Of a stretch of 33,021 bases of DNA, positions 7,783 through 26,983 are shown in pieces (the stretch's first letter is position 1; every line of letters begins with the position of its first letter). The notes below the pieces were generated by a model. The model searched no databases, was not told the origin of the DNA, and was given only the letters and a program-made list of their open reading frames with translations. Source of the DNA: Elusimicrobiota bacterium. Its GTDB lineage: Bacteria; Elusimicrobiota; Elusimicrobia; Elusimicrobiales; UBA9959. The translations under genes and the position numbers were made by a program. The stretch lies in contig JACQWV010000050.1 in assembly GCA_016209085.1 (NCBI GenBank), positions 1 through 33,021 of the forward strand, in the 5' to 3' direction.

Positions 7783-9585
7783 ATGAAAGAAAAAGACTTG
7801 CAGGTTATCATAGCGACTGATTGCGGAAGCACGACGACTAAAGCGATTTTGATTGAAAAAAAGGGAGACACCTACAGGCAGACTTTCAGGGGCGAAGCTC
7901 CCACGACCGTGGAAGCGCCTTTTGAAGACGTGACAAAAGGCGTTTTAAACGCCATTACCGAAGTTGAAGAATTATCCGGCAGAAAAATACTGGACGGCGA
8001 AAAAATCATAACGCCCAACAGCGGGAATACCGGAGCCGACATTTACGTGTCAACGAGTTCGGCAGGCGGAGGCCTTCAGATGATGGTAGCTGGAGCCGTC
8101 AAAACCATGACCGGCGAATCAGCCCAGAGATGCGCCCTGGGAGCTGGAGCCATAGTAATGGACGTGCTTGCCTCAAACGACGGCAGGGCCGACCATGAAA
8201 AAATAGAAAGAATAAGACAGCTCAGGCCCGACATGATTCTGCTTTCAGGCGGAACGGACGGCGGAACCGTCACGCACGTGGTTGAGTTGGGCCAGTTCAT
8301 AAAAGCGGCCGACCCGAAACCAAGACTCGGAGCTTCCTATAAACTTCCGGTGATTTACGCCGGCAATAAGGATGCGAGAGAAAAAATCACGGAAATTCTC
8401 GGCGAAGGAACCGCTTTGATGAAGACCGATAATCTCAGGCCTATTCTTGAAAGGGAAAACCTCATGCCTGCGCGGCACAAGATACACGACATATTTCTTG
8501 AGCACGTGATGCAGCAGGCGCCGGGCTATCCGAGACTCATGAACATGGTTCACGCTCCCATAATGCCGACCCCGATGGCGGTAGGGCTCATGGTGGAAAA
8601 ATTCGCCAAGGCGAAAAATTACAACGTGCTGGCTGTTGACATAGGAGGAGCCACAACCGACGTTTTCTCCGTATTTTCCGGGGTATTTAACAGGACTGTC
8701 AGCGCGAATCTGGGAATGAGTTACTCCATTTCCAACGTTATGGCCGAGGCAGGACTGCCCAACATAATGAGATGGCTGTCTTTTGACATGGACGAGCAGG
8801 ACCTCAGGAACAGGTTAAAGAATAAAATGATAAGACCCACCACTGTTCCGCAGACGGTGGAGGATTTGCAGATAGAACACGCGGTCGCCAGAGAAGCTTT
8901 GAGGCTGGCTTTTGACCAGCATAAAATGCTTGCAGTCGGACTCAAAGGCGTTCAGCAGGAGCGTTCAATTTCAGACGCTTTTGAACAGACCGCAACAGGC
9001 CAGAGCCTCATAAGAATGATGGACCTTAATTACATAATAGGAAGCGGCGGCATACTCGCTCATTCCCCGCGCAGGATACAGTCCGCAATACTGATGACGG
9101 ACGCGTACCAGCCCGAGGGCATAACCATGCTTGCGGTGGATTCCATATTCATGATGCCTCATTTAGGCGTTCTGGCGCAGATAAGCGAGAAAGCCAGTCT
9201 TGACGTTTTTTACCATGATTGTCTTGTTAAATTAGGGGCATGCATCGCTCCCAGGGGGCTGGCAAAAGAAGGTCAGAATATAATGGAATGGGAAATAACA
9301 GAGGAAAGCGGGTCCGCCTCTGGCGGAAAACAATCCGGGGTTCTTAAATTCGGAGAATTAATACACATTCCGTTTAAAGCCAAGGGAAAGATATCTGCAA
9401 AGCCGGTCAAGGGTTTTGACATGGGTCATGGGAACGGAATCAAAATTGAAGGAGAAATAGAGGGCGGCGTAGCCGGGATTATTCTGGACGGCAGGGGAAG
9501 GCCTTTTGAGCCGCCGAAGATGCATTCAAAAAGAATAGCCGATTTGAATAAATGGTCCAAATCAGTGGAAATGTACCCAGTATAA
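7783..9585 (+). CDS. Glutamate mutase accessory protein L (MutL/GlmL)-like ASKHA-fold protein
   Basis: 600 aa; ATDCGSTTTKAILIE phosphate-1 motif, LLSGGTDGG, VDIGGATTDVFS phosphate-2 motif, YIIGSGGIL. Confidence 0.88.
   Translation: MKEKDLQVIIATDCGSTTTKAILIEKKGDTYRQTFRGEAPTTVEAPFEDVTKGVLNAITEVEELSGRKILDGEKIITPNSGNTGADIYVSTSSAGGGLQMMVAGAVKTMTGESAQRCALGAGAIVMDVLASNDGRADHEKIERIRQLRPDMILLSGGTDGGTVTHVVELGQFIKAADPKPRLGASYKLPVIYAGNKDAREKITEILGEGTALMKTDNLRPILERENLMPARHKIHDIFLEHVMQQAPGYPRLMNMVHAPIMPTPMAVGLMVEKFAKAKNYNVLAVDIGGATTDVFSVFSGVFNRTVSANLGMSYSISNVMAEAGLPNIMRWLSFDMDEQDLRNRLKNKMIRPTTVPQTVEDLQIEHAVAREALRLAFDQHKMLAVGLKGVQQERSISDAFEQTATGQSLIRMMDLNYIIGSGGILAHSPRRIQSAILMTDAYQPEGITMLAVDSIFMMPHLGVLAQISEKASLDVFYHDCLVKLGACIAPRGLAKEGQNIMEWEITEESGSASGGKQSGVLKFGELIHIPFKAKGKISAKPVKGFDMGHGNGIKIEGEIEGGVAGIILDGRGRPFEPPKMHSKRIADLNKWSKSVEMYPV
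9313..9327. repeat. Short perfect hairpin inside the GlmL-like gene
   Basis: tccgcc tct ggcgga; encodes part of SGSASGGKQSG. Confidence 0.6.
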
Positions 9586-9701: not shown

Positions 9702-10826
9702 ATGGCACATGCATACACGCCGGGATTAAAAGCAATACCGTGCACTGTTTTGAGAAAAAAAAGAATGCTTCCGATTCCGGGCAAGGTTCTCGCGGAATCC
9801 GGCAAACAGATAGACGCTCTTGACGTCGTGGCTCAGACGGAACTGCCGGGCAAAGTTTATCCTGTAAACGTGGCGAACAGGCTCGGGATATCTCCTGATG
9901 AAATCCGCGGTTACATGGTCAAGAGAGAATTAGACAAGGTGAAAAAATTAGAAACAATAGCCGAAAACAAGCCTTTTATTTCATGGTTTAAAACAAAAAT
10001 AGAATCTCCGGTTGCGGGGACAGTGGAATCGGTTTCAGAGCTTACCGGACAGGTTCTGCTGAGAGAGCCGCCGAAAATTCTGCCTCTGAAAGCCTACATT
10101 AAAGGCAGAATCGCCGAGGTTCATCCCAATTTCGGCGTCACCATTGAAACGGAAGGAACCTTCATCCAGGGAATATTCGGAATAGGCGGCGAGACGAACG
10201 GGGAAATAGCGGCAGCTGTTGAGAGTCCCGACGAGGAGCTGGTGGCGGAAGATATAAAGGAGCTTCATAAGGGTAAGATCGTGATAGGCGGCAAACACGC
10301 AAGTCTCAACACCATAAAGCGCGCGATTGAAATCGGCGTTCACGCCATTGTCGTGGGCGGAATACACGACAGGGATTTAAGGCAGATTCTCGGCTACGAC
10401 ATAGGCGTGGCAGTCACCGGCACGGAACAGATAGGCCTGACCCTGGTGGTTACCGAGGGCTTCGGAATGATACCCATGGCTGAATACACTTTCAGGCTTC
10501 TTAAATCCAGGGAAGGCGAAAAAGCCTCTGTTTCAGGAGCCACGCAGATACGGGCGGGCGTGATGAGGCCTGAAATCATAGTTCCCGGATACCCGAAAAA
10601 CGTAACGCAGTGCAAAAAAGACGAGGGAAGAGGCTGGATTGAGCCGGGAGACCCGGTGAGAATAATACGGGAGCCTCATTTCGGAGTCATCGGAACAGTC
10701 GCCTCGCTTCCTCCGGAACTTACGAAAATCCCATCTGAAAGCCGTGTCAGAGTTCTTGAAGTCACCCTGCCGGGCGGGGAGAAGCTTGTGATTCCGCGCG
10801 CCAATATAGAGGTTTTGGAGAAGTGA
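9702..10826 (+). CDS. Conserved hypothetical protein with lipoyl-like and C-terminal KOW-like segments, partner of the GlmL-like gene
   Basis: 374 aa; IESPVAGTVESVSELTGQVLLREPP barrel-sandwich-like segment; GDPVRIIREPHFGVIGTVASLP KOW-like segment. Confidence 0.75.
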   Translation: MAHAYTPGLKAIPCTVLRKKRMLPIPGKVLAESGKQIDALDVVAQTELPGKVYPVNVANRLGISPDEIRGYMVKRELDKVKKLETIAENKPFISWFKTKIESPVAGTVESVSELTGQVLLREPPKILPLKAYIKGRIAEVHPNFGVTIETEGTFIQGIFGIGGETNGEIAAAVESPDEELVAEDIKELHKGKIVIGGKHASLNTIKRAIEIGVHAIVVGGIHDRDLRQILGYDIGVAVTGTEQIGLTLVVTEGFGMIPMAEYTFRLLKSREGEKASVSGATQIRAGVMRPEIIVPGYPKNVTQCKKDEGRGWIEPGDPVRIIREPHFGVIGTVASLPPELTKIPSESRVRVLEVTLPGGEKLVIPRANIEVLEK

Positions 10827-12991
10827 AAAAACAAAAAAAAAATACTCCCGCGCATGATCAAAAACAGGCTCCTGCCGCTCCCCGCTTCCCTCCCTGGCTT
10901 GTCTGGCCCGTAATATGCGTCTGGGGTTTTATCGTTTTTAAGAGCTATTATGCCAAGTATTTGCCGGATACCCGCTTCATTTTTACCCTTTTGTCGCCCG
11001 AGCAATACCTTTCCGGAGATATAAAAATCATCGCGAGCCGTTTGATTGACCTGTTTCTGGGGTGCCTCGTTGTTTTTTCAAATTTCAGCCTGGGCAGGAT
11101 TGTTTCAGGATTTTTGAAACTTAAATACAAAAACTTTCTTGAAGAAATCGTGTTTGCGACAGGCATCGGGATGGGAATCTTTGCATATCTGCTTTTCATC
11201 CTAGGAATTTTTAAAATTCTTTATCCCGCCCTGGTTTGGCCCATGACCGCCGGACTGGCTCTTTTCGGACTCTTCAGCCTTAAAAAATCCCCTCCACATG
11301 AAAGCCTGCCGGGCCGGCAAAACAATACGCAGATGGTTTTTAAAGGCATAGACGTTTTTGCCGGCCTCATTCTCGGGGCCGCCTGCGTCTTGAATCTGAT
11401 AGGCGCGCTGAGCCCTGAAATTTTTTACGATTCTCTCGTGTATCATCTGGGGGTTCCGAATTACTACAAACTGAACCATGCGGTAACGGAAATGAGATAC
11501 AATTTTTATTCCAACATGCCTCACCTTCACAGCATGATATATCTGCAGGGCCTTTTGCTGAAGGACGAGTTTACAGCCAAAGCCGCAAATTACCTGACAG
11601 GCCTGCTCATAATGTTTTCAGCCGTCTCAATCGGAATCAGGCATTTTAGCTTCAGGACGGGACTGTGGGCGGCGCTTGTTTTTTACACCCTGGCGCACTC
11701 AATGATGGGAGCGTGGTCCTGCGGCACGGAAATGCATCTGGCTTATTTCGGAATGCTGGCAATGTATTGCGTCTTGAATTTCAAAGAGGAAGAAAACAGA
11801 TGGATTGTTCCTGCCGCTTTTTTCAGCGGGCTTGCAATGAGCGTTAAATATACGGGCATTTTCATAGAAATTTCCGTGCTCGCCGCGTATGTTTTTAAAG
11901 AAAGAAAATTTTCCGCAAGGGCGCTCAGAAACATAATAATATTCGGATTTGTCTCGGCGCTCATGGTCGCGCCGTGGCTTGTAAAAAATTATGCGTATAC
12001 CTCAAATCCCGTTTATCCCTTTCTGGGCAAGATATTCGGACTGGGAGAGCATTCAAGTTTTGAGAGAATACAGGTATTTTTAAACGACGCAAAACAGATG
12101 AATCTTACCCTCAAAAGCTGGATTGAGACTCCGTGGATGATTACAATGGGCAAAATCGCCTATTCCGAATTTTTTACTCCGATTTTCATTTTTTTCCTCC
12201 CTATTGCGTTCCTTCTCGGCAGGGGAAACCTTCATATCAAAGTTATTTTTGCGTATTTTATCGGAATCTGGCTGACCTGGTCCGTTTCTTCCACGGTAAT
12301 AAGATTCATGATGCCGGCCTATGCGGCGGGAGGGCTGATAATTTCCTATTATCTTTTCTCCTGGGGACACAATTTTCTTAAAAAGATTCTTTTGTGGCTG
12401 GTAACGGCATCCTGTCTTTCAGGTTTATACGGCGCCGCTTCCATCTGGTATATCCAGCGGAAGTGGGAGCCGGTTCTCGGCCAGATTCCCAAGCACGAAT
12501 ATCTGTCAAAAACAAAAAGCTCTTATCCCTACAGCCATTATGCCGGAATAAAATTCATAAACGAGAATCTCCCTCCCGACGCAAAGGTAATGATAATCGG
12601 AGACGGCAGAACTTATTACATGGAAAGAAAATTCGTAGCAAGCACCGTGTTTGACCTGACTCCCATGGTGGAATATTCAAAAAAATCGGGTGACGCTGAA
12701 GGACTTTACCGGAAGTTAAAATCAGAAGGAATTACCCACATTCTGCTGAACGCGGGCGAAGCTCTGCGTCTTCAGGAACAGTACAACATATTTTATTTTG
12801 ACGAAAAATCTTTTGCGGTTTTCAACGAATTCTGGGACAGAAGGGTCAGCGAGGCATTCAGTTTTGACGAGACTCAAGCCGGCCATTTCATAAACCGCAT
12901 CGTGGTTTACCTGATAAGCCCTGAAGCGAAGCAGGGAAAACCCGCTTTTAACTACATAAAGGAATTTGTTTTAAAAACAAAAAAAATATGA
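10823..12991 (+). CDS. Polytopic glycosyltransferase-like membrane protein (GT39/PMT-like)
   Basis: 722 aa, many TM segments; [17 protein letters not shown] and [12 protein letters not shown] resemble GT-C family proteins; soluble C-terminus. Confidence 0.7.
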
Positions 12992-14601
12992 ATCAGAAAA
13001 CAGCGGTGATAATCGGGGCGGGGCCGGCCGGGCTCACATCTGCGTACGAATTGATAGACAGAACCGACATATCGCCCGTAGTCCTGGAAATGACGCCTGA
13101 TATGGGAGGGATTTCAAAAACGGTCAATTACAAAGGCAACAGGATTGACATAGGAGGGCACAGGTTTTTTTCCAAATCCGACAGGGTAATGAACTGGTGG
13201 CGGAATTTGTTTCCTGTTCAGGGTTTTCCCGCAAGAGACGACATTCTTTTAGGCAGGAAAAAACAATTCCCGGCAGAATGCCTTCATAGACCCGTACGTT
13301 CCAAAGAACGTTTAAAAATACCGGCGCCGGATCCTGAAAAACAGGACGTTCTGATGCTTCTTAGGGATAGGTTTTCCAGGATATATTTCAATAAGAAGTT
13401 TTTTGATTATCCCGTGTCTCTGAGCATGGATACCGTCTTTAAAATGGGATTTGCCCGCACGCTGGCCGTGGGTTTAAGTTACCTGAAATCGCGCGCGTTT
13501 CCGGTGAAAAACGAAAAATCCCTGGAAGATTTTTTTATAAACAGGTTCGGCAGAAAGCTTTATGAAACGTTTTTCAAAGACTATACGGAAAAGGTCTGGG
13601 GAATCCCGTGCAGCCGGATAAAACCGGAGTGGGGAGCGCAAAGAGTAAAGGGCCTGTCTGTTTCAAAAGCGGTTATGCACGCGGTAAAGAAAGCGTTTGA
13701 CCGGGGTCATTCCGTTTCCCAGAAAGAAGTTGAGACAAGTCTGATAGCGAGGTTCATGTACCCCAAACTGGGGCCGGGCCAGCTCTGGGAAGAAGCCGGC
13801 CGTGTGATAAAAGAGAACGGCGGGAAAATTCTTGTAGAGCATAAGGCGGAAGGCATTGAGATTTCAGGCAAAAGAGTAACCGCCGTAATCGCAAGAAACG
13901 CAAAGACACGGGAACTTGTGAAAATCAGCGGGGATTACTTTTTTTCCTCAATGCCGGTCAAGGATTTAATACAGGCTTTCGGTTCCGGGGCGCCGCCTGA
14001 CGTAAGGAAAACGGCCGAGGGATTGAATTACAGGGAGTTCATAACAACGGGTCTCCTTCTCAGAAAACTGAACATAAAAAACGAGACAAAGATAAAAACA
14101 ATCAACGGCATTATACCGGACAACTGGATTTACGTGCAGGAAAGCGGAGTTAAAATGGGCAGAATCCAGATATTCAACAACTGGAGCCCCTACATGGTAA
14201 AAGACCCGGGCACGGTCTGGCTGGGGCTTGAATATTTCTGCGCCACAGGCGACGAGATGTGGAGAATGACGGATAAAAAAATGATTGAATTTGCGGTTGA
14301 AGAAGCGTGCAGAATAGGCATGATGAAGAAAGAGGATTTCCTTGACGCAGCCGTCATAAGAATGGAAAAGACTTATCCGGTTTACAGCGGCTCGTACGAG
14401 AATTTCGGGATAATCAGGGATTTCACCGACGGATTTGAGAATCTTTTCCTGATCGGCAGGAACGGAATGCATAGGTATAACAATTCGGACCATTCAATGC
14501 TTGCGGCGATGACTGCGGTTGACAATATTCTGGCGGGAGAGACATCAAAAGAAAACATCTGGAACATAAACACGGAAGAGGAATATCATGAAGAGAAGTA
14601 A
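12988..14601 (+). CDS. FAD/NAD(P)-binding oxidoreductase, UDP-galactopyranose mutase-like
   Basis: 537 aa; [17 protein letters not shown] dinucleotide-binding motif, [43 protein letters not shown]. Confidence 0.85.
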
Positions 14602-14649: not shown

Positions 14650-15927
14650 ATGAAAAACGGAAAGATTGCCGCCGCAGTTCTTGCGGCTATTTTTTTTGCT
14701 TCTGTTTCCGGAGCGTCGGCAGAGAAGAAAAAAATTGAAATCCCCCCCCTTGAAGGACTCACGGCTCGGGACATGCCTTATGACATGGGAGCAGCGGCTT
14801 TGCTTGAGTGGAAAATAAGGGACTGTGATAACCAGGACATGACTTACCGGATTTTTGTCTCAAGTCTTGCAGGAACAGGACCTGCCCTTCGTAGCTTTAC
14901 CGAAGCAGGGTGGATCAAGGTTGACGAATTCAAAGGGAACGAAAGGCTCGCAAAGGACATTGAGCTTCCTTTCTGGGCCTGGAATGCCTCCAAAAACATT
15001 CACGCGGTAAAAGTCAGTCTTGATAACTTCTTTGGGAAAATTCAAGACGGTTCTGTTTATTATTTCAAGGTGATGACTCTCAGGGGAAAACAAATTTCAG
15101 AAAGTCCTGTTGTCCCCGGCGCTGTCAAAGGAAACTGGTTCAATTTATCCCGTTTTAATAATTTGTTTTATGTGATTTTAATCTCTATGGCTTTTTTCTG
15201 GGCGGTTACGCATGCTAAAAAAGGAAATCTCTTCATAAGGAGAATAACGGGGTTGGATGCGGTTGAAGAAGCGATAGGCCGCGCCACTGAAATGGGCAAA
15301 CCCGTGTATTATCTGACCGGCCGCCTTGGAATGGGCAGCATGTCAACGATAGCGGCTACGTTCATTCTCGGAGAAATTTCAAAAAGAATTGCGACTTACG
15401 ACACACAGCTGAAGGTTCCGCATACCGAGCCCGTCACCATGACGGTGTGCCAGGAGATAGTAAAGCAGGCTTACAGCGAGGCGGGAAGGCAGGATGCTTA
15501 CAGGGAAGACATTAATTTTTACGTTACAGACGACCAGTTCGCTTATACCGCAGCCGTTGACGGGATGATGACAAGAGAAAAGCCGGCCGCGTGTTTTTAC
15601 ATGGGCTATTATTACGCCGAATCCCTTCTGCTTACCGAGATAGGCTCGCACACGGGCGCGATTCAGATTGCAGGGACCGACGCTGAGCATCAGCTTCCGT
15701 TTTTTTTCATTACCTGCGATTATACTCTGATAGGCGAGGAATTATACGCGGCAGGCGCGTATCTTTCAAAAGATCCGGTGCTGGTCGGGACTCTAAGGGG
15801 CCAGGATATAGGCAAGGTTTTTGCCATGGCCGTGATACTGCTCGGTGCAATCGGGCTTACCCTGGCGCATGTTCGCGGCTGGGATGGCCTTACCAGAGTA
15901 ATAGGAAATCTTTTTAATTCATTTTAG
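14650..15927 (+). CDS. Module A gene 1: DUF6754-like membrane protein
   Basis: 425 aa; signal peptide, FN3-like N-domain, TM, GLDAVEEAIGRATEMGKPVYYLTG...TGAIQIAGTDAEHQLPFFFITCDYTLIGEELYAAGAYLS; C-terminal TM; paralogue of 18660-19877. Confidence 0.8.
   Translation: MKNGKIAAAVLAAIFFASVSGASAEKKKIEIPPLEGLTARDMPYDMGAAALLEWKIRDCDNQDMTYRIFVSSLAGTGPALRSFTEAGWIKVDEFKGNERLAKDIELPFWAWNASKNIHAVKVSLDNFFGKIQDGSVYYFKVMTLRGKQISESPVVPGAVKGNWFNLSRFNNLFYVILISMAFFWAVTHAKKGNLFIRRITGLDAVEEAIGRATEMGKPVYYLTGRLGMGSMSTIAATFILGEISKRIATYDTQLKVPHTEPVTMTVCQEIVKQAYSEAGRQDAYREDINFYVTDDQFAYTAAVDGMMTREKPAACFYMGYYYAESLLLTEIGSHTGAIQIAGTDAEHQLPFFFITCDYTLIGEELYAAGAYLSKDPVLVGTLRGQDIGKVFAMAVILLGAIGLTLAHVRGWDGLTRVIGNLFNSF
14880..14911. 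repeat. In-frame palindrome inside module A gene 1
   Basis: cctgcccttcg tagctttac cgaagcagg; the tandem paralogue lacks this segment. Confidence 0.8.
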
Positions 15928-15974
15928 TAAAGTGAATGTAAATCCTCACTGAACACCGTTATGTCAGGCAAAAA

Positions 15975-16035
15975 TGTAGGGGCTCAATTCATTGAGCCCG
16001 AAAAATATGCGGGTCGGATGAATCCGACCCCTACA
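15975..16035. repeat. GTAGGGG/CCCCTAC palindromic element, copy 1
   Basis: tgtagggg ... cccctaca ends; inner hairpins gggctcaattcattgagccc and gggtcggatgaatccgaccc. Confidence 0.9.
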
Positions 16036-16062
16036 CCAACGGCGTTGACTGAATACTTACAA

Positions 16063-16142
16063 GTGAATAGTGAGTGAGTGATTAAGTGAGTAAGCGAGTA
16101 ATCACTCAATCACTTAATTACTTAATCGCTTAATCACTATTG
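16063..16142. repeat. Octanucleotide inverted array, 5 + 5 units of 8 bp
   Basis: gtgaatag tgagtgag tgattaag tgagtaag cgagtaat / cactcaat cacttaat tacttaat cgcttaat cactattg. Confidence 0.9.
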
Positions 16143-16144
16143 TT

Positions 16145-16816
16145 ATGATATTTAAGAAAAAATTGCCGCTTATTGTGTGTTTCATAGTCGGGATTCTGAC
16201 TCTTTTGCAGTATTATGTTCCCAACAAGGTGTCCATAGGATATCTGGAAACAATGACCCAGTGGGACATTATAATAAGCGCGTTTGCGTTTTTGTTGGGA
16301 CTTGCAAGTTTGTTCGCAATGCACTATGACAAAATTCGCAGGAAGACACAGGGCTGGGGTTACAGCCTTTTTATGTTTGGCGGAGTCATTTTGGGATTGA
16401 CATGCGGAATTATAAGCAAAGCCAATCAGACCAACCAGGAAGGTTTTATCACGGCATTCGGCTGGATATATAATTATGTGCTGAATCCTCTTCAGGGGAC
16501 AATGTTCGCATTGCTTGCGTTTTACGTGGTTTCTGCTTCTTTCAGGGCGTTCAGGGTTAAGTCGGGCCAGGCATTTATTTTGTTTCTTGCGGCTGTCATA
16601 ATTCTCTTCGGCAGGGTTCCACTTGGACAACTTATCTGGAGTAAATTTATGAGTTGGCTGCCGTTCGGAATATCCGAAGCAATTGAATGGATTATGAATT
16701 TCCCCTCCACTGCCGCAAGAAGAGGCATTATGATAGGCATTGCCTTAGGCGCGGTTGCAATGTCTCTGAAGATAATTTTCGGAATAGAAAAACAGTATTT
16801 AGGCGGAAAAGAGTAA
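16145..16816 (+). CDS. Module A gene 2: polytopic membrane protein of unknown function
   Basis: 223 aa, about six TM segments; paralogue of 20007-20678 (shared FILF.AA..I..G.VPLG, RRGIMIGIA.GA...SLKIIFGIE.QY). Confidence 0.8.
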   Translation: MIFKKKLPLIVCFIVGILTLLQYYVPNKVSIGYLETMTQWDIIISAFAFLLGLASLFAMHYDKIRRKTQGWGYSLFMFGGVILGLTCGIISKANQTNQEGFITAFGWIYNYVLNPLQGTMFALLAFYVVSASFRAFRVKSGQAFILFLAAVIILFGRVPLGQLIWSKFMSWLPFGISEAIEWIMNFPSTAARRGIMIGIALGAVAMSLKIIFGIEKQYLGGKE

Positions 16817-16827
16817 ATCAGGAAGCG

Positions 16828-16926
16828 GTGAATAGTGATTAAGTAATTAAGTGATTGAGTATGAGCGAAAGGCTGCACAAAAAATCGGACTAAATCGCTA
16901 AATCTCTTACTAACTTAATCACTAAT
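16828..16926. repeat. Octanucleotide inverted array, 5 units + ~19-bp spacer + 5 inverted units
   Basis: gtgaatag tgattaag taattaag tgattgag tatgagcg / spacer / ggactaaa tcgctaaa tctcttac taacttaa tcactaat. Confidence 0.8.
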
Positions 16927-16928
16927 TT

Positions 16929-17762
16929 ATGAAAAACTTTTTTGACAAATTGCTGAAATTAGACAGGAGAATATTATTTCTGCTTGTTGTTTTTGTGATA
17001 GTATTTCCAATTTTCAAGCCCCTGAAACTTCCGGGGATAAAGATAACGGACGCTGTGAAAGGCGTTTATAACACGATTGAAAGCCTCCCGGAAAACTCTG
17101 TGATTCTTGTCTCATTTGATTTTGACCCTGCTTCAAAGCCTGAGCTCTACCCCATGGCGGTGGCGGTTCTGCGCCACGCTTTTAAGAAAAATTTGAAGGT
17201 CATAGGAATGACCCTCTGGGCAACCGGACCGGGAATTGCAGATGAGATTATAACAATGACCGCCAGGGAATACAAGAAGGAATACGGGAAAGATTATCTG
17301 TATTTCGGCTATCAGGTGGGCGGATATGCGGTCATAACCGGGATGGGAACCGACATATACAAGATTTTCTCAAAGGATGCCAAAAAAGGCAGTCCCCTTG
17401 AGACTTTTCCCGTAATGCAGGGAATCAAGTCTTTGAAAAATTTTGCTTATGTAATTGATTTTGGGGCAGGGGACCCTGGAATAGATACATGGATTGCTTA
17501 CGGGGCTGACAAGTTTGGTTTCAAACTCGGAGCCGGCTGCACTGCCGTAAACGAGGCGCCGACAAGGCCGTATCTTCAGACAAAACAATTAACCGGCTTG
17601 ATTCCAGCCATGAAAGGGGCGTCTGAGTACGAGATACTGATAAAGGCTCCGGATAAGGCAAGCGCCGGAATGGATGCCATAGGGCTTGGGCATTTTCTGA
17701 TATTGTTTCTTGTTATTTTGGCCAATGTGGTTTTGATTGTTCAAAAATATTTATTGACATAA
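16929..17762 (+). CDS. Module A gene 3: membrane-anchored protein of unknown function (TM at both ends)
   Basis: 277 aa; SLPENSVILVSFDFDPASKPELYPMAVAVLRHAFKKNLKVIGM; paralogue of 20737-21471. Confidence 0.8.
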   Translation: MKNFFDKLLKLDRRILFLLVVFVIVFPIFKPLKLPGIKITDAVKGVYNTIESLPENSVILVSFDFDPASKPELYPMAVAVLRHAFKKNLKVIGMTLWATGPGIADEIITMTAREYKKEYGKDYLYFGYQVGGYAVITGMGTDIYKIFSKDAKKGSPLETFPVMQGIKSLKNFAYVIDFGAGDPGIDTWIAYGADKFGFKLGAGCTAVNEAPTRPYLQTKQLTGLIPAMKGASEYEILIKAPDKASAGMDAIGLGHFLILFLVILANVVLIVQKYLLT

Positions 17763-17774
17763 TTTAACGTTAAA

Positions 17775-17839
17775 TGTAGGGGTTCAATTTATTGAACCCG
17801 TAAACTCTGGTTTCGGGCTTGATAAATCAAGCCCCTACA
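17775..17839. repeat. GTAGGGG/CCCCTAC palindromic element, copy 2
   Basis: tgtagggg ... cccctaca ends; inner hairpins gggttcaatttattgaaccc and gggcttgataaatcaagccc. Confidence 0.9.
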
Positions 17840-17854
17840 ATCGGACTAATATCT

Positions 17855-18658
17855 ATGGACTTTACCGCTATTTTAGGAGCATGGATTGCCGTAGGGCTTA
17901 CTCTGTTTATATTGAGTTTTCTTTATAGAGATAATCCTTTGTTTAAAATCGCTGAAAATTTATATATAGGAATAGCCATTGGCTATATTTTTTCAATTAC
18001 GATATATAATGTCTGGATTCCCAAAATTTATCAGCCCGTTTCCAATAGGGTTTTTACGAGTCTTTCAAACTGGGTTCCCTGGGTTTCTAAATTCGTCACA
18101 CCAGCAGGCGACGCCGGCAGTTTAACTCCGCTTTTTCCGGCCATAATCGGCATAAGTCTGCTGACAAGAATATTTCCTAAAATTTCATGGATTTCAAGAT
18201 ATGGTTTTGCATTTATTGTGGGCTATGGAGCGGGTCTTGCGATTCCTGCAACGGTTGCGACCATGTTCATAGCTCAGATTGAAGGCACCATACAGCCTGT
18301 TTTTAAATTAGCCTCCGGAGGAGCGATTGATTTGTCAGGACCCGCTTTATGGACGTCTTTTTCAGCGATTTTGCTTTGTTTAGGAGTGATTGTAACGCTT
18401 TTTTATTTTTTCTTCTCGCTGGAACACGGCAAAATCTCAAAGAAGGTTACCAAAATCGGGATATATTTTTTGATGGTTTATTTCGGCGCTGCTTTCGGCA
18501 CGACAGTCATGGGAAGGTTTGCCCTTTTATACGGCAGATTTTTTGACCTTTACACTTACAGAACATCAGGTTATTACCATGCAACTCCAATACTTATCTT
18601 GCTTGTGTTGATATTTTTCTTTGTGTATTTTGGGAAATCCCGCAAAACAAGTCCTTAA
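17855..18658 (+). CDS. Module A gene 4: polytopic membrane protein of unknown function
   Basis: MDFTAILGAWIAVGLTLFILSFLYRDNPLFKIAENLYIG; start moved from TTG 17819 (inside the repeat) to ATG 17855; paralogue of 21475-22299. Confidence 0.8.
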   Translation: MDFTAILGAWIAVGLTLFILSFLYRDNPLFKIAENLYIGIAIGYIFSITIYNVWIPKIYQPVSNRVFTSLSNWVPWVSKFVTPAGDAGSLTPLFPAIIGISLLTRIFPKISWISRYGFAFIVGYGAGLAIPATVATMFIAQIEGTIQPVFKLASGGAIDLSGPALWTSFSAILLCLGVIVTLFYFFFSLEHGKISKKVTKIGIYFLMVYFGAAFGTTVMGRFALLYGRFFDLYTYRTSGYYHATPILILLVLIFFFVYFGKSRKTSP

Positions 18659-18659
18659 A

Positions 18660-19877
18660 ATGGCTTTTCAAATTCTAATTATTATTTTCTTCAGCATGAA
18701 TCTAAATGCCGCCGCAGAAATTCTCTTCCTTGACGAATTTTCCGCGGCAGACATGCCTTATGACGCGGGTGAGGAAGCTCTTCTTAAATGGAAGACGAGT
18801 CCGCTGGATTCCGCCCAGGCAACTTATCAGGTTTTTGCTTCAACCATGCAAACAGGAGGATGGATAAAAGTTGACGAATTTTCTGCGGATAAAAAATTCG
18901 CATCCGACATAAAACTCCCTTTCTGGGCGTGGAAAGCAAGAAAGGATTTACATGCCGTTGCAATACCTCTTGAAACGCATTTCGGAAAGTTGGAAAAAAA
19001 TAAAGAATATTTTTTCAAAATTATAAGTATAAAAGGCAGACAAAAATTTGAAAGCGAAATCGTCTCAACGCAGGTAAAAAGAAACTGGTTTAATTTTGCA
19101 CGTCTGAATAATCTCGTTTTTGTCCTCGTAATATTCGGCATTTTCATCTGGACCGTTTCTCACGCGAAAAGAAAAGGCCTTTTCATCAGAAGAATCGCCG
19201 GGCTTGACGCCATAGACGAGGCAATCGGCAGGGCGACCGAGATGGGCAGGCCTATTTATTACATTACGGGAATAGGATCAATGTCTTCAATTTCAACAAT
19301 CGCCTCCACCTTTATTCTCGGAGAAGTGGCGGGAAAGGTCGCCCAGTACGACAGTTACGTGAAAGTCCCGCATTACAACCCGATTGTTATGACCGTATGC
19401 AAGGAAGTGGTAAGGCAGGCCTACCTTCAGGCCGGCAGGCCGGATTCTTACAGGGAAGACATGAATTTTTTCGTAAGTTCAGACCAGTTCTCCTACGCTG
19501 CCAGCGTTGACGGAATGATAACGAGGGAAAAACCCGCCGCGTGTTTTTTAATCGGGCACTTTATGGCAGAATCCCTCCTGCTTGCCGAGGTCGGAGCCAC
19601 AGTCGGCGCCATACAAATTGCAGGCACTGATTCAGAGCATCAACTTCCTTTTTTCTTTACAACCTGCGACTATACGCTGATAGGCGAGGAGCTTTACGCT
19701 GCCGGAGCGTATCTTTCAAAAGAGCCCATGCTTTTAAGCACGTTGAGGCTTCAGGATTACGGAAAATTTTTTGTAATTGTGGCGGTTGTAATCGGAATCG
19801 CGCTTATGACGCTGTCTGTTCAATACAAGTGGGACCTGACGGATAAAATACTGGAAAATATTTTTAAAACATATTAA
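18660..19877 (+). CDS. Module B gene 1: DUF6754-like membrane protein
   Basis: Paralogue of 14650-15927 throughout; ATG at 18660 directly after the upstream stop. Confidence 0.8.
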   Translation: MAFQILIIIFFSMNLNAAAEILFLDEFSAADMPYDAGEEALLKWKTSPLDSAQATYQVFASTMQTGGWIKVDEFSADKKFASDIKLPFWAWKARKDLHAVAIPLETHFGKLEKNKEYFFKIISIKGRQKFESEIVSTQVKRNWFNFARLNNLVFVLVIFGIFIWTVSHAKRKGLFIRRIAGLDAIDEAIGRATEMGRPIYYITGIGSMSSISTIASTFILGEVAGKVAQYDSYVKVPHYNPIVMTVCKEVVRQAYLQAGRPDSYREDMNFFVSSDQFSYAASVDGMITREKPAACFLIGHFMAESLLLAEVGATVGAIQIAGTDSEHQLPFFFTTCDYTLIGEELYAAGAYLSKEPMLLSTLRLQDYGKFFVIVAVVIGIALMTLSVQYKWDLTDKILENIFKTY

Positions 19878-20000
19878 CCCCGTTAGAGATACATGGGTAG
19901 AGTTTAAATTCAAGATGCTGAAAACCAATACCTATAGAAAGTTTAAACTGAAAAACAGGGTAGTCGTCGGTCACGCAAGCGTGACCTATCTCTAACGGGG
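19878..20000 (-). mobile_element. Short inverted-repeat (MITE-like) element, copy 1
   Basis: ccccgttagagata ... tatctctaacgggg ends; internal ggtcacgcaagcgtgacc hairpin; TAA flanks both sides; divergent from copies 2 and 3. Confidence 0.8.
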
Positions 20001-20006
20001 TAAACT

Positions 20007-20678
20007 ATGATGCTGATAAAAAGATATATTCCGCTTGCGATAGTGTTCGTGTTCGGGATAATGACCCTTGCCACGTATTACATTCCCCCGAAACTGGCCC
20101 AGGACTATTATCTTGAGACAATGAACAAGTGGATAAACATCGTGGCGGCTTTTGCGTTTCTGCTGGCTCTTTTAAGTCTTTTCTATTCGCATTACAACAA
20201 GATAAAGAGAAAAGTTGACGGCTGGGGTTACAGCATTTTTGTTTATATAGGATTCCTTGTCGTCGTTGTTTGCGCAATCAAGAGCGAAGGGCAATTGATG
20301 ACAGGACCCGCTCTTACAAGCCTTGGGTGGATATTCAGGTTTCTCTATAATACTCTTTCAGCCAGCATGTTCGCGGTCCTTGCTTATTACATAGTCTCCA
20401 CTGCTTTCAGGTCTTTCAGAATAAAAACTTTGCAGGCTTTCGTTCTGTTTATGGCGGCCCTGTTTTTTATCATAGGAAAAGTCCCGCTGGGAAACGTCTT
20501 ATGGAACAAATTGTTTTTCTGGACGAATGTTTCCATCTCGCAGGTTACTGACTGGATTATAAATGTTCCGTCCGTGGCTGCTAAAAGAGGAATAATGATA
20601 GGCATAGCAGTCGGGGCCATAGTGACCTCGCTTAAAATAATATTCGGCATAGAAAGACAGTATATGGGGAAAGATTAA
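20007..20678 (+). CDS. Module B gene 2: polytopic membrane protein of unknown function
   Basis: 223 aa, paralogue of 16145-16816. Confidence 0.8.
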   Translation: MMLIKRYIPLAIVFVFGIMTLATYYIPPKLAQDYYLETMNKWINIVAAFAFLLALLSLFYSHYNKIKRKVDGWGYSIFVYIGFLVVVVCAIKSEGQLMTGPALTSLGWIFRFLYNTLSASMFAVLAYYIVSTAFRSFRIKTLQAFVLFMAALFFIIGKVPLGNVLWNKLFFWTNVSISQVTDWIINVPSVAAKRGIMIGIAVGAIVTSLKIIFGIERQYMGKD

Positions 20679-20685
20679 AGTAGTT

Positions 20686-20702
20686 GCACGCTCTTGGCGT
20701 GC
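20686..20702. repeat. Short hairpin after module B gene 2
   Basis: gcacgc tcttg gcgtgc, perfect 6-bp stem; related core at 30259-30275. Confidence 0.6.
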
Positions 20703-20736
20703 CTATTTAGGCGAGAAGGCGATTGGGTAAGAAAAT

Positions 20737-21471
20737 ATGCGGAAAGAGATGCTGGAGAAGTTTTTAAAGATTGACAGAAGGATAATATTTCTTCTGCTTA
20801 CGCTTGTTTTATTCATTCCGATAGTAAAACCTCTCAATCTTCCGATAGGAGCGGTCAGCGTTGACACAAAAAAGCAGGCAACCGCTATTGTAAGGCATTG
20901 TTTCAAGAAAGATTTAAGAGTCGGCGTCATAACTTTCATAGCGGGAGCCACGGGCTTGATTGAAGAGATTTTTGAAAAAGTTCCCCAAGAATACAGAAAG
21001 GAATACGGGAAGGATTACGTGATATTCCCGTATCAGGCCGACTATTCCGCCGTGCTTACGCAGATGGGATTTGACCTTTACCAGATTTATGACAAAGATA
21101 AATTCGGAACGCATCCTAAAAACCTCCCTGTAATGCAGGGAATTAAAAGTTATAAAGACATGGGCATGGGAATATGCATTACCGGCACCGCTCTTCTTGA
21201 CGGATGGGTCGCTTTTGCCGGAGATAAATTCAAATTTCCTCTGGGCGGCGGAGTTACGGCAGTAAGCCAGCCGGGGTACGGCCCCTATCTGCAGACGGGA
21301 CAGCTTGTGGGTCTTCTGGGCGGGATGAAAGGCGGGGCCGAATACGAATCTCTTCTCGGCATTCCCGGCAAGGGCACTTCCGGAATTGACGCCCTGAACC
21401 TGGGGCATTTTATGGTAGTCATTCTTATTTTGATTTCCAACATTATCATTATCGTAACAAGATACTTTTAA
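20737..21471 (+). CDS. Module B gene 3: membrane-anchored protein of unknown function, shortened paralogue
   Basis: 244 aa, paralogue of 16929-17762; lacks about 30 residues near the N-terminus. Confidence 0.8.
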   Translation: MRKEMLEKFLKIDRRIIFLLLTLVLFIPIVKPLNLPIGAVSVDTKKQATAIVRHCFKKDLRVGVITFIAGATGLIEEIFEKVPQEYRKEYGKDYVIFPYQADYSAVLTQMGFDLYQIYDKDKFGTHPKNLPVMQGIKSYKDMGMGICITGTALLDGWVAFAGDKFKFPLGGGVTAVSQPGYGPYLQTGQLVGLLGGMKGGAEYESLLGIPGKGTSGIDALNLGHFMVVILILISNIIIIVTRYF

Positions 21472-21474
21472 ATT

Positions 21475-22299
21475 ATGTCTGAAACATGGTTAATTATCGG
21501 CGGATGGGTTGCGGCAGGACTTACCATTTTTATTTTCAGTTTTCTTTACAAAGACAATCCGTTTTTCAAAATAGCCGAACACCTTTATCTGGGAGCCGGA
21601 ATGGGCTGGTGGTTCCAGGTGATGTTTTACAATATATGGAAGCCGAAAGTATGGGAGCCCGTAAAAATACTGGTTAACGGACTGCAGATAATACAATCCT
21701 ATCATATATGGAAGCCGGAATTCTGGAAAGCCGTCTGGACAGCGGGAGATTGGACAATATTTATTCCGACCCTGTTAGGGCTGTCGCTTATAACCCAGTT
21801 TTTCCAGAAAATTTCATGGGTTTCAAGATACGGATTTACTTTCATAATGGGATACGGGGCTGGACTTGTAATTCCGGTTTCTGTTTCCACTGATTTTATG
21901 ACCCAGATACTCGGGACCATAAAGCCCCTGTTCAAAGTCGGGACTGAGATGTCATGGGCTTCGTTTTTTTACACTTTCAACACTTTCCTGATAGCTTTCG
22001 GCCTTGTGTGCGTTTTGATTTATTTCTTTTTTTCAGCGGAGCAGAAGGGATTAGTCAAGAAGGCTTCCAACATAGGCATATATTTCCTCATGCTCTATTT
22101 CGGAGCGGCTTTCGGCAATACAGTTATGGGCAGATTTTCTCTTTTATACGGCAGGTTTGACGATTTGTACAAATATTCTTCCGTAAAGTATTTTTACGCC
22201 GCCCAGATTATAGCAGCCGCGCTCGCTGTTTATTTTATCCTCAATCATTTCATCTCTGCGAAAAAATCCCGCGCCGCCCAGGACAACAGCGGTTCATAA
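21475..22299 (+). CDS. Module B gene 4: polytopic membrane protein of unknown function
   Basis: 274 aa, paralogue of 17855-18658 (shared FSFLYKDNPFFKIAEHLYLG, ISWVSRYGFTFIMGYGAGL, YFGAAFGNTVMGRFSLLYGRF). Confidence 0.8.
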   Translation: MSETWLIIGGWVAAGLTIFIFSFLYKDNPFFKIAEHLYLGAGMGWWFQVMFYNIWKPKVWEPVKILVNGLQIIQSYHIWKPEFWKAVWTAGDWTIFIPTLLGLSLITQFFQKISWVSRYGFTFIMGYGAGLVIPVSVSTDFMTQILGTIKPLFKVGTEMSWASFFYTFNTFLIAFGLVCVLIYFFFSAEQKGLVKKASNIGIYFLMLYFGAAFGNTVMGRFSLLYGRFDDLYKYSSVKYFYAAQIIAAALAVYFILNHFISAKKSRAAQDNSGS

Positions 22300-23182: not shown

Positions 23183-24055
23183 TTACTGTAATTTATTTAT
23201 CTCTATCTTCGCTTTCTGCCGGAGTTCCGTTATAAGTTCAGTAAGTTTCGTAGATACGAGCTGATTTGTAAGCGCAAGGATTATGTCGTTTTTCACTTCT
23301 TCAAATTTTGCCGGCTGGGAAGGCTTCAAATCTTCAACTTTAAGTATGCTGAACCCGTTTCCGGTCTGAATGGGTTTTGTAAACTGTCCGGACTTGATAG
23401 AAAAGACCTCTTTTTCTATTTCGGGAATCAGGGTTCCTTTAAGGACATATCCAAGGTCTCCCGCGTTTTTTTTCAGGTTTTCGTCTGCGGATTTAAGAGT
23501 TGCCAGTTTGGAAAAATCCGCTCCTGCCGCAAGCGCCACGTGCACGTCGTCGGCTTCCTGGCTGGTTTTTACGAAAATCTGCCTGAGTTTTATTGATTCC
23601 GGCCGTCCGAGTTTGTCTTTATTCTGGTCGAAAAATGTCCTGGCGTCAGCTTCGGTTACGGCTATGTTTTTGCTTTTGATTACGGTTTCTCTTATTAAAA
23701 TCTGGCGTTTTATCTGCTCTTTCAGGTCGTCCTGGGTCAGACCCGCGTTTTTAAGGTTTTTCTCATAATCCTCTTTTGTATTGTAGGTTGAGATTATGCC
23801 GTTGAGCCTTGTTTCAAGTTCTTTCCTGTCAGGATTTATTTTAAGGGTTTTCGCTTCCTGAAGCAGCAATTTTTCGTCAATCATGTCCTGGAGCGTCCTG
23901 TCCGAATGGAGCCTCCAGACTCTTTTTGATATTTCGTCTTTTGTTATTTTCTCTCCGTTTACCAGCACGTAGGCAGATTTGTCGTTTTCCGCCTTTGCCG
24001 CGTATGCCGAAAGAACCGCAAGAATACCGGCTAAGAACAACGCTCTTTTTTTCAT
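23183..24055 (-). CDS. SurA N-domain / PpiC-type peptidyl-prolyl cis-trans isomerase, exported
   Basis: Signal peptide MKKRALFLAGILAVLSAYAAKA; IKLRQIFVKTSQEADDVHVAL..FSKLATLKSADENLKKNAGDLGYVLKGTLIPEIEKEVFSIKSGQFTKPIQTGNGFSILKVE; start set at 24055. Confidence 0.88.
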   Translation of the reverse strand: MKKRALFLAGILAVLSAYAAKAENDKSAYVLVNGEKITKDEISKRVWRLHSDRTLQDMIDEKLLLQEAKTLKINPDRKELETRLNGIISTYNTKEDYEKNLKNAGLTQDDLKEQIKRQILIRETVIKSKNIAVTEADARTFFDQNKDKLGRPESIKLRQIFVKTSQEADDVHVALAAGADFSKLATLKSADENLKKNAGDLGYVLKGTLIPEIEKEVFSIKSGQFTKPIQTGNGFSILKVEDLKPSQPAKFEEVKNDIILALTNQLVSTKLTELITELRQKAKIEINKLQ

Positions 24056-24083
24056 AATGATATTTCCTCCTGTAGCACGAATT

Positions 24084-25157
24084 TTATTCGTTTTGTTTAT
24101 GCACAAACAATGTCTGCGTGGGATATGCGAATTCTATTTTATGTTTTGCAAATTCCTCAATGATGCCGTGGTAAATCCGTTCCTGTATGTTCATGTAAAG
24201 ATTATAATCCGGGTCTGAGATGTAATATACGATTTCAAAATCAATGGAATAGTCTCCCAGATTATACAGGTTCGCTCTGTCAAACGAAACTTTCTCCATG
24301 CTGGAAATCACTGTCCGGGCTATTTGCGGAATCATCCGGAGTTTTTCAAGAGGGGTCTGATGGATTACCTGCAGTTTGAAAACCGCCCTTCTTTTCTGCA
24401 TGTGATTGTAGTTTCGTATTTTGTCTGAAAGCAGTTTTGAGTTTGAAACTATGAGCAATTCTCCGCTCAGGCTCCTTATTCTCGTAGATTTTATTCCTAT
24501 GTGTTCTATTGTGCCGAGCGTGGCGCCGGAATCGGTTTCAATAAAATCGCCGATTGCAAAAGGCCTATCAAAAAGAATCACGAAAAAATTGAAGAGGTCG
24601 CCGAGTATAGTCTGTGAGGCAAGAGCTATGGCGACTCCGCCTATGCCCAGCCCCGCCATCAGGGCCGAGACGTTCACGCCCAGATTGTCCAGCACGAATA
24701 TGGCGGCAGCTATCCAGATGATGCTGTTGAGTATTACCTTGACGCTGTTAATCACCGTTGTCTTGGAAGATTCTTCAAGCTGTCTCTGCGCCGCTATTTT
24801 TTTGAGCCAGAACGCTATAAGATAATGGATTAAAATTATTGCTCTGTAGGTGAAAACCACCAGGATAATCAGGTGCAATGCTTTGTTGAACAACGGAGAT
24901 TTATAAATGTGTCTTGTGGCAAGGTAGAGGGCTATAAGCTGGTATTCAGGAGCTTTTATTTTTGATATGAGGTCTATTATGAAATCGTCCAGGTCGGTTT
25001 TAGTTTTTAGGGCAAGTTCCCGCAGTTTTACGAACACCAGATTCCGCAGTCCGTAAATGGCAAGGAGGGAAATGACGAAGATTATGGCGGCGTAAACATA
25101 ATTCGCAACAGTATCGCCTAAAAAAGATGAGTTAAGAAAAACGCCGATTTTTTCCAT
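24084..25157 (-). CDS. MscS-family mechanosensitive ion channel
   Basis: 357 aa; GVNVSALMAGLGIGGVAIALASQTILGDLFNFFVILFDRPFAIGDFIE. Confidence 0.92.
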   Translation of the reverse strand: MEKIGVFLNSSFLGDTVANYVYAAIIFVISLLAIYGLRNLVFVKLRELALKTKTDLDDFIIDLISKIKAPEYQLIALYLATRHIYKSPLFNKALHLIILVVFTYRAIILIHYLIAFWLKKIAAQRQLEESSKTTVINSVKVILNSIIWIAAAIFVLDNLGVNVSALMAGLGIGGVAIALASQTILGDLFNFFVILFDRPFAIGDFIETDSGATLGTIEHIGIKSTRIRSLSGELLIVSNSKLLSDKIRNYNHMQKRRAVFKLQVIHQTPLEKLRMIPQIARTVISSMEKVSFDRANLYNLGDYSIDFEIVYYISDPDYNLYMNIQERIYHGIIEEFAKHKIEFAYPTQTLFVHKQNE

Positions 25158-25223: not shown

Positions 25224-25667
25224 CTATTGTTTCTGAGGAGCGGAACCGGGTTTTTTTCTTAAAGAAATGTCGTGCAGAAACTCTTTTTCCCTTATAAATT
25301 TTTCTATAAGAGCGTTAATGGCGTTTGTAAGCTCCTTCAGGTCTATCGGTTTGGTGAGGAACAAATCCGCGTGGGCGATGAGATTCGCCCTTATTTTCGC
25401 GTCGTTGGTCATGTTGGCAGTTAGAATTACGACAGGTATTTTTCTTGTGGCAGGATCGTCTTTAATCATTTGGCAAAGTTTCAGTCCGTCCATGTCAGGC
25501 AGGCCTATGTCTATGATTATCAAATCAGGTTTGCTTGATTCTTTCAGCCATGTAAGGGCGGTATTGGCGCACGCGGCCGGCTCCACCAGATAACCTTTGG
25601 CTTCAAGAGCGACTCTCAGCATTTTGACTATGTTTTCGTCGTCTTCAACTATCAGAATTTTAGCCAT
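25224..25667 (-). CDS. Stand-alone response regulator receiver protein 1
   Basis: MAKILIVEDDENIVKML..PDLIIIDIGLPDMDGLKLC..VVILTANM..FLTKPIDLKEL. Confidence 0.92.
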   Translation of the reverse strand: MAKILIVEDDENIVKMLRVALEAKGYLVEPAACANTALTWLKESSKPDLIIIDIGLPDMDGLKLCQMIKDDPATRKIPVVILTANMTNDAKIRANLIAHADLFLTKPIDLKELTNAINALIEKFIREKEFLHDISLRKKPGSAPQKQ

Positions 25668-25673
25668 ATCTTA

Positions 25674-26111
25674 TCACCTGTTATCGCTCAAAAATCTTCT
25701 TTTGAGGGAAATGTCGCTCAAAAAAGTTTTTTGTTTCAAGTATTCGTCTATCAGGGTTTTGGCGGCTCCGGTCAGCTCCTTGAGTTCTATGGGTTTGTTT
25801 AAAAACAAATCCGCATGCGCCGTTGTATTGGCTTTTATTTTGGCTTCATTCGTCATGTTGGCGGTAAGTATGATGACGGGTATCTTTCTTGTGGCCGGGT
25901 CGTCTTTAATTGTTTTGCAAAGAGTGATTCCGTCGGTATCCGGAAGCCCGATGTCCAGAATTATCAAATCAGGCTTGACCGGCTCTTTGAGCCATTGGAG
26001 GGCGGTTCTGCCGCATGATGCACACTGGATAATGTATCCTTCCTGTTCAAAGGCTTGTTGAAGCATTTCAAGAAGCGGAATATCGTCTTCGGTAATCAGA
26101 ATCTTCGGCAT
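25674..26111 (-). CDS. Stand-alone response regulator receiver protein 2
   Basis: MPKILITEDDIPLLEML..PDLIILDIGLPDTDGITLC; close paralogue of the two flanking regulators. Confidence 0.92.
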   Translation of the reverse strand: MPKILITEDDIPLLEMLQQAFEQEGYIIQCASCGRTALQWLKEPVKPDLIILDIGLPDTDGITLCKTIKDDPATRKIPVIILTANMTNEAKIKANTTAHADLFLNKPIELKELTGAAKTLIDEYLKQKTFLSDISLKRRFLSDNR

Positions 26112-26153
26112 AAATTAAAAACTTACGTTCTGCAGTAATCCCGCGGAGCTTCA

Positions 26154-26278
26154 CCCCGTTAGAGACAGGTCGTGCTTGCACGACCGTGCTTTGTTTAGAG
26201 TCTTTTGTTTGAACTTTTATAATTTCAACATTTTCAGCATCTTTAGTCAGCGCTTTCACCTGTGTGTCTCTAATGGGG
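26154..26278 (+). mobile_element. Short inverted-repeat (MITE-like) element, copy 2
   Basis: 125 bp; ccccgttagagaca ... tgtctctaatgggg ends; ggtcgtgcttgcacgacc hairpin; 4-bp direct flanks ttca (26150-26153) and ttca (26279-26282). Confidence 0.88.
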
Positions 26279-26279
26279 T

Positions 26280-26714
26280 TCATTTTTGTTCAAAGAATCT
26301 CTTTTTCAAATATAAATCCTGCATGTAGGATTTTTCCCTTAAAGCCTGGTCCATCATGTTTTTAACGGCTGACGACAATTCAGCCAGGTCTATGGGTTTG
26401 TTAAGGAATAAATCAGCCTTTGCAGTAAGTCTTGCCTTTATTTTTGACTCGTTCGTAAGGCTGGCTGTAAGAATGATAACCGGGATTTTTTTCAAAGCAG
26501 GGTCGTCTTTTATCATTCTGCAGAGAGTGACCCCGTCAATGTCGGGCAGGCCTATGTCGCTGATTATCAAATCCGGCTTGGAAGCCTCCCTGAGCCAGTT
26601 CAGGGCTGTTTTTGCCATTGAGGCTGTCTGGACAAGATACCCCTCATGTTCCAAAGCCATCTGGAGCATTTCCAGAACAGACAGATCGTCTTCAACCAAC
26701 AGAATTTTAGGCAT
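26280..26714 (-). CDS. Stand-alone response regulator receiver protein 3
   Basis: MPKILLVEDDLSVLEML..PDLIISDIGLPDIDGVTLC; close paralogue of the preceding two. Confidence 0.92.
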   Translation of the reverse strand: MPKILLVEDDLSVLEMLQMALEHEGYLVQTASMAKTALNWLREASKPDLIISDIGLPDIDGVTLCRMIKDDPALKKIPVIILTASLTNESKIKARLTAKADLFLNKPIDLAELSSAVKNMMDQALREKSYMQDLYLKKRFFEQK

Positions 26715-26734
26715 ATATTGAGTGTTGCGTTAAC

Positions 26735-26771
26735 AATGTAATAAATTCCACGACGGTGGTTAGATTACATT
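26735..26771. repeat. Imperfect palindrome upstream of receiver protein 3
   Basis: aatgtaat ... ccac gacg gtgg ... attacatt. Confidence 0.65.
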
Positions 26772-26869
26772 ACTTATGCAAACCTCAATAATTTTGTCCT
26801 TAAATACAACATCTTCCGCAGAAATTTTGCGGCAATGATTCAAATTTTAAGTAAGAAATTCCAATACTC

Positions 26870-26916
26870 CCCGCCCTGATATACATCAGGGCGCCACGGG
26901 TTTATCCCGTGGCGGG
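26870..26916. repeat. Outer-stem plus double-hairpin palindrome
   Basis: gccctgat atac atcagggc (26873-26892) and gccacggg tttat cccgtggc (26893-26913), with outer cccgcc/ggcggg. Confidence 0.85.
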
Positions 26917-26965
26917 CCTAATTTAGGCACAGATTAATTATAATATTAAATTTTTAACTATTCAA

Positions 26966-26981
26966 TGTGATTTTGGTCACA
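26966..26981. promoter_or_regulatory. CRP-like dyad
   Basis: TGTGA TTTTGG TCACA, matches the TGTGAn6TCACA consensus. Confidence 0.6.
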
Positions 26982-26983
26982 CA

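Follow-up and report, generated by a model that had tools for sequence, protein, structure and literature searches.

A conserved DUF6754 membrane module in uncultured Elusimicrobiota, found beside a GlmL-like ATPase and carried by one genome in two diverged cassettes

Closest described systems

GlmL is the ATP-dependent partner of adenosylcobalamin-dependent glutamate mutase, and reactivates this B12 mutase by cofactor exchange. The GlmL/MutL family (PF13941, NF040745, TIGR01319) is among the closest described relatives of a locus from an Elusimicrobiota bacterium (assembly GCA_016209085.1, contig JACQWV010000050.1), in which two cassettes of four membrane protein genes, here called A, B, C and D, follow genes for a GlmL-like ATPase and for a predicted soluble protein, G97. 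The source genome bin comprises 2.35 Mb and is 98% complete; the whole 33,021-nucleotide stretch that was analysed is referred to below as the window. We propose, with a probability of roughly 0.5, that A-D are the membrane sector of a six-part, ATPase-coupled inner-membrane machine that also includes the ATPase and G97.

The window ATPase resembles the GlmL/MutL family in its full-length match to PF13941 (412.6 bits against a cut-off of 27), its homology to GlmL across about 450 residues, and its intact motifs of the acetate and sugar kinase/Hsc70/actin (ASKHA) type (DxGSTxTK, DxGGATTD and GSGG), the ATP-binding motifs being invariant. It differs from that family in an extended C-terminus, in the lack of glutamate mutase in its genome, in its link to a membrane module, and in a score of 229.2 bits against the NF040745 cut-off of 475, which with scores below all other NCBIfam GlmL cut-offs places it outside the GlmL equivalogs. 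G97 recalls RnfC and NqrA, of the Rnf and Na+-NQR complexes, in a weak N-terminal stretch of RnfC_N/NqrA_N barrel-sandwich type; RnfC_N matches occur in 13 of 13 G97 proteins (best 8.9e-6) and NQRA_N matches in nine. The window G97 itself scores 13.2 bits against RnfC_N, under the cut-off of 25.6, and differs further in a KOW-like C-terminal stretch and in that other Rnf or Nqr subunits were not found in the module. Proteins A1 and A2 are strong members of DUF6754 (PF20539), a domain catalogued without a function; neither B, C and D nor the link to an ATPase is part of its Pfam entry. A literature search found nothing on DUF6754 or on the module. The first-pass annotation, made from the sequence alone, recognised no characterised system with this composition, and this judgement has held up by sequence profile, by fold (for A and C) and in the literature. 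By these comparisons, and with its distribution surveyed within Elusimicrobiota, the module would be a new kind of system, its DUF6754 domain being already catalogued.

A six-gene unit conserved among relatives

The window holds eight open reading frames (ORFs) in two head-to-tail A-B-C-D cassettes, at 14650-18658 (cassette 1) and 18660-22299 (cassette 2; Table 1). Their pairwise protein identities (A1/A2 55%, B1/B2 51%, C1/C2 47%, D1/D2 48%) bear out the gene order and gene-by-gene paralogy described in the first-pass annotation. Homologues favour starts at 17855 for D1 and at 18660 for A2 over longer, mechanically called ORFs; the A2 start codon lies one base downstream of the D1 stop codon, a spacing that makes co-transcription of the two cassettes likely.

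When 101 relative genomes were searched for each of the six proteins, matches were found in 55 genomes for A, 54 for B, 54 for C, 55 for D, 57 for the ATPase and 56 for G97, and the mismatches between these counts mostly reflect genes cut by contig ends or genomes that are 60-81% complete. The A-B-C-D order is constant, across many genera, in every retrieved locus long enough to judge, C and D being called as overlapping ORFs in one of them (L053), and evolutionary distances are congruent among the module genes (Spearman 0.87-0.94). The earlier suggestion that the four products form one complex is partly upheld, in that the four families co-occur elsewhere in a fixed order, share one phylogenetic profile and evolve congruently. 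The four-gene module of that annotation stands as regards the conserved A-D block and falls short as regards its extent, since the conserved unit includes the upstream ATPase and G97. These two genes usually precede A-D in the retrieved loci, and the distant loci L034 and L035 have all six side by side. In 38 of 55 genomes G97 shares contig and strand with A and lies upstream of it; 14 others have the two on different contigs, or have G97 missing or contig-split (G038). A single ATPase-G97 pair is present even in genomes with two cassettes.

The module is present in nearly all members of one uncultured Elusimicrobiota family. Within the phylum, DUF6754 was detected in that family and in only a few genomes outside it, with 19 positive genomes in each of two phylum samples of about 200 genomes; a scan of genome contigs returned it from Elusimicrobia only, and the closest named matches of the window genes are Elusimicrobia metagenome-assembled genomes (MAGs). 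In tblastn searches of plasmids, A, G97 and C had no match, and the ATPase matched only ordinary GlmL genes (27-30% identity); scans of viral contigs and tblastn searches of phages with C were likewise empty.

Glutamate mutase E (PF06368) was found in none of the 101 relative genomes and methylmalonyl-CoA mutase (PF01642) in nine, leaving 92 without it; the latter was also not found in the source genome. Because the distribution of the ATPase matches that of A-D, and the B12 enzymes tested are absent or rare, the simplest reading is that the ATPase serves the membrane module, to which it seems tied rather than to those enzymes.

Architecture of the membrane proteins

The label DUF6754, which the first-pass annotation had applied, is confirmed for A1 and A2 by PF20539 matches of 368.5 and 376.4 bits against a cut-off of 27 (E values of 1.8e-110 and 7.3e-113), covering positions 2-248 and 2-252 of the 257-position profile. 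Its description of membrane topology also agrees with the predictions: six transmembrane (TM) helices in B, TM helices at both ends of C, and a polytopic D. No curated family in Pfam or NCBIfam matched B, C or D. Protein A begins with a signal-like stretch and an N-terminal domain resembling immunoglobulin (Ig) or fibronectin type III (FN3) folds; a central TM helix and the DUF6754 domain follow, and a further TM helix lies at the C-terminus. An AlphaFold2 model of A2 from a 49-sequence alignment (mean predicted local distance difference test score, pLDDT, 84; predicted template modelling score, pTM, 0.55) comprises an N-terminal beta-sandwich, a TM helix at 146-171, an alpha/beta domain corresponding to DUF6754 and a long C-terminal helix; Foldseek comparison of A with the PDB gave mostly Ig-like matches to the N-terminal domain and was uninformative for DUF6754. 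The positively charged stretch HAKRKGLFIRR immediately follows the central TM helix and, by the positive-inside rule, would place the DUF6754 domain in the cytosol. The model of C1 (45-sequence alignment; pLDDT 92, pTM 0.88) is one Rossmann-like domain flanked by N- and C-terminal TM helices, and Foldseek returned only generic Rossmann folds in the PDB and nothing convincing among viral proteins. This domain is probably outside the cell, the charge bias being weak. In B, positive loops alternate as expected for an N-in/C-in protein, and D has five clear TM segments and probably seven.

In profile searches against PDB sequences, A, B and D gave no match at E<=10 and C gave chance-level matches only; mutual homology was not detectable between A and C or between B and D. 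No RnfA/E- or NqrD/E-type six-TM subunit was matched through Pfam in any B or D member, and no flavin, iron-sulfur or quinone motif was recognised in A-D. PADLOC assigned no defence family to the six proteins, PHROG gave no match, and Rfam found no family in the window.

A proposed machine and its alternatives

The six-part machine is proposed because the A-B-C-D order is invariant, the distribution of A-D matches that of the ATPase and G97, and the four gene trees agree in separating the two cassettes. In such a machine A would hold its Ig/FN3-like domain outside the cell and its Rossmann-like DUF6754 domain inside, B and D would form the intramembrane core, and C would present a second Rossmann-like domain, probably outside, whose D-x-D-P...P-E-L-x-P motif may bind a ligand. 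On the cytosolic face the ATPase, by way of the barrel-sandwich protein G97, would engage the DUF6754 domain of A, and the resulting ATP-driven conformational change might serve to load, exchange or move a small ligand or cofactor. By the precedent of GlmL the task would be to load or exchange a cofactor, transport being an equal possibility; a cofactor as the substrate is a first guess from this analogy, offered with low confidence. In the window, a foreign or ancient cassette 1 would precede a native cassette 2 whose C has lost the motif. The two alternatives here are a takeover by cassette 1 and a mixed complex of the products of both, served by one ATPase. The wider proposition, that a GlmL-type ATPase was recruited from B12 enzymes to a four-subunit membrane complex whose sectors are exchangeable as cassettes, this genome running two of them on one ATPase, is a tentative one that we would sooner doubt than adopt. 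If the six-part reading is correct, the module is a new kind of bacterial membrane complex, and its dedicated ATPase comes from a family hitherto recorded only in the reactivation of B12 enzymes. Exact gene boundaries, the conserved motif of C and the natural motif-less variant C2 are resources for its study, and the two diverged cassettes are a ready system for subunit exchange.

Several points weigh against the six-part machine. In 3 of 55 genomes G97 is on the same contig as A but downstream of it or on the opposite strand. The matching profile derives mainly from one family, so that the counts are not independent and the Fisher p value of 1e-23 ignores relatedness. The B12 clients tested were two, those of PF06368 and PF01642, among a wider range that includes ornithine and lysine aminomutases and B12 radical S-adenosylmethionine enzymes. 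The topology of C is ambiguous, the substrate is guesswork, and the deletion in C2 described below comes from one MAG assembly. To these is added a 94% complete genome (G093) that has A-D without the ATPase or G97, and shows that the link is not absolute. It also favours an alternative in which A-D form a complex on their own, such as an ion channel or a transporter, and the ATPase and G97 are mere syntenic neighbours with a soluble role such as reactivation of a B12 enzyme. Such an arrangement would fit the incomplete genomes G001, G006 and G023, which have the ATPase and no A-D, the several genomes that have the two halves some kilobases apart or on separate contigs, and the extended homology of the ATPase to GlmL. 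It fits poorly with a profile match that is otherwise near complete, with the absence or rarity of both mutases among relatives, and with the direct adjacency of all six genes in L034 and L035, and we consider it unlikely. A third possibility, an energy-coupled redox or ion-translocating complex, draws on the barrel-sandwich resemblance of G97 and on a complex-I-like operon that lies beside the MscS, peptidyl-prolyl isomerase (PPIase) and A-D genes in L056, L060, L061 and L065. Barrel-sandwich domains are common, however, and the window G97 scores below the curated cut-off; B and D have no Rnf or Nqr family match, the redox motifs expected of such a complex were not recognised in A-D, and the complex-I neighbourhood occurs in only those four of the loci examined. 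We regard this possibility as improbable.

Origin of the two cassettes and the deletion in C2

The two cassettes were at first described as a tandem duplication, a description that the phylogeny contradicts, since none of the four gene trees joins them as sisters. In single-gene and concatenated trees, cassette 2 groups with the single-copy version usual in the family, while cassette 1 groups with the two distant Elusimicrobia L034/L035, with support of 99-100 in each gene, and with L053 in a larger set. Under the model used, the approximately unbiased (AU) test rejects a clade of the two cassettes for A (1.3e-5), B (7.0e-5), C (6.9e-7), D (0.0095) and the concatenated genes (p-AU 8e-62), and cassette 2 shares 63-69% identity with single-copy relatives, as against only 46-55% with cassette 1. 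Local tandem duplication followed by divergence inside the genus would account for the head-to-tail arrangement with its one-base junction, and is compatible with the finding that for A, B and D the identity of cassette 1 to cassette 2 is about that to other homologues; given the tree tests and the identities of cassette 2, it is nonetheless very improbable. For cassette 1 this leaves two origins, horizontal acquisition or descent from an ancient parallel copy that was lost elsewhere. It is about equally identical to all comparison groups (46-58%, raw values), and a donor therefore cannot be named; the agreement of all four gene trees supports its inheritance as one unit. The window ATPase and G97 cluster with the homologues of their own family. 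The earlier view that the module is kept in two versions applies to this genome and to genus g6, the only other place where two copies were found (G005 and G016, dispersed on separate contigs), and does not extend to the remaining relatives, which are single-copy.

Protein C2 skips positions 46-72 of the C profile, which all other complete C proteins span in full, a feature that the first-pass annotation does not mention. The roughly 30 lost residues include the first beta strand and the D-x-D-P...P-E-L-x-P motif, whose residues D64, D66, P67, P71, E72, L73 and P75 (C1 numbering) are nearly invariant in the remaining set. The deletion may represent decay after the arrival of cassette 1, specialisation, or an error of MAG assembly. 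That cassette 2 is decaying, with C2 broken and cassette 1 having replaced it, is a distinct possibility with the odds somewhat against it: C2 alone is without the first strand and the near-invariant motif, but its reading frame is intact, A2, B2 and D2 retain their full length, the junction of the cassettes is tight, and C2 could be a specialised subunit of a mixed complex or an artefact of assembly.

The intergenic gaps of cassette 1 are wider than those of most relatives. A palindromic repeat, GTAGGGGNTCAATTNATTGANCCC, occurs at 15976-15999 in the A1-B1 gap and at 17776-17799 in the C1-D1 gap of cassette 1, with none expected by chance, and was absent from the loci retrieved from other genomes; it is possibly an element of the repetitive extragenic palindromic (REP) kind or a small mobile element. 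Arrays of 8-base units such as AGTGATTA / AGTAATTA, in both orientations, lie around B1 (16063-16139 and 16828-16924) and near 5.6 kb (5617-5679), with 10 matches against none expected.

Neighbouring genes and other features of the window

Table 1. Positions of the module genes, their neighbours and related operons (window coordinates unless a locus is given)
Feature	Position	Strand	Description
ATPase	7783..9585	+	GlmL/MutL-like ASKHA ATPase, 600 aa, PF13941, C-terminal extension of about 120 aa
G97	9702..10826	+	374 aa, predicted soluble
Accessory neighbour, not core	10823..12991	+	large polytopic protein, weakly LIC_10190-like
Neighbour, not core	12988..14601	+	FAD/NAD-binding amine-oxidase-like protein, PRK07208 type
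A1 (cassette 1)	14650..15927	+	DUF6754 protein, 425 aa; ORF, PF20539 match
B1 (cassette 1)	16145..16816	+	223 aa, 6 predicted TM
C1 (cassette 1)	16929..17762	+	277 aa, Rossmann-like domain between two TM helices, complete
D1 (cassette 1)	17855..18658	+	polytopic protein
A2 (cassette 2)	18660..19877	+	DUF6754 protein, 405 aa
B2 (cassette 2)	20007..20678	+	223 aa, 6 predicted TM
C2 (cassette 2)	20737..21471	+	244 aa, in-frame loss of about 30 residues
D2 (cassette 2)	21475..22299	+	274-aa polytopic protein
PPIase, conserved neighbour	23183..24106	-	PPIC-type (parvulin), SurA/PrsA-like
MscS, conserved neighbour	24084..25157	-	MscS-type mechanosensitive channel
Complex-I-like operon	L056:816-3986, L060:12793-18862, L061:2-7385, L065:629-3695		

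The large polytopic protein that follows G97, which we read as glycosyltransferase-like, has counterparts that often, although not always, lie between G97 and A in relatives. About half of the long loci (L033, L051, L056, L058, L060, L061, L063, L065, L066 and L067) have the PPIase and MscS genes next to the module, as in the window, and in both relative orientations. In four genera the MscS-PPIase-ABCD group is in turn adjoined by the complex-I-like operon, which encodes a 49-kDa subunit, NuoH, a ferredoxin and an Mrp-type antiporter and is on the same strand as A-D in L060 and L061. These neighbours are a weak hint at envelope or energy functions.

Further downstream, four stand-alone, response-regulator-like receiver proteins are encoded in a row on the minus strand (25224-27458). 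They are followed at 27780-33021 by genes for an mmdA-like carboxyl-transferase, a short phosphopantetheinyl-transferase-like protein and a long ketoreductase/dehydratase-type protein that runs off the window end; with the domains of the last two as read from their sequences, this region looks like a polyketide- or polyunsaturated fatty acid-type synthase locus.

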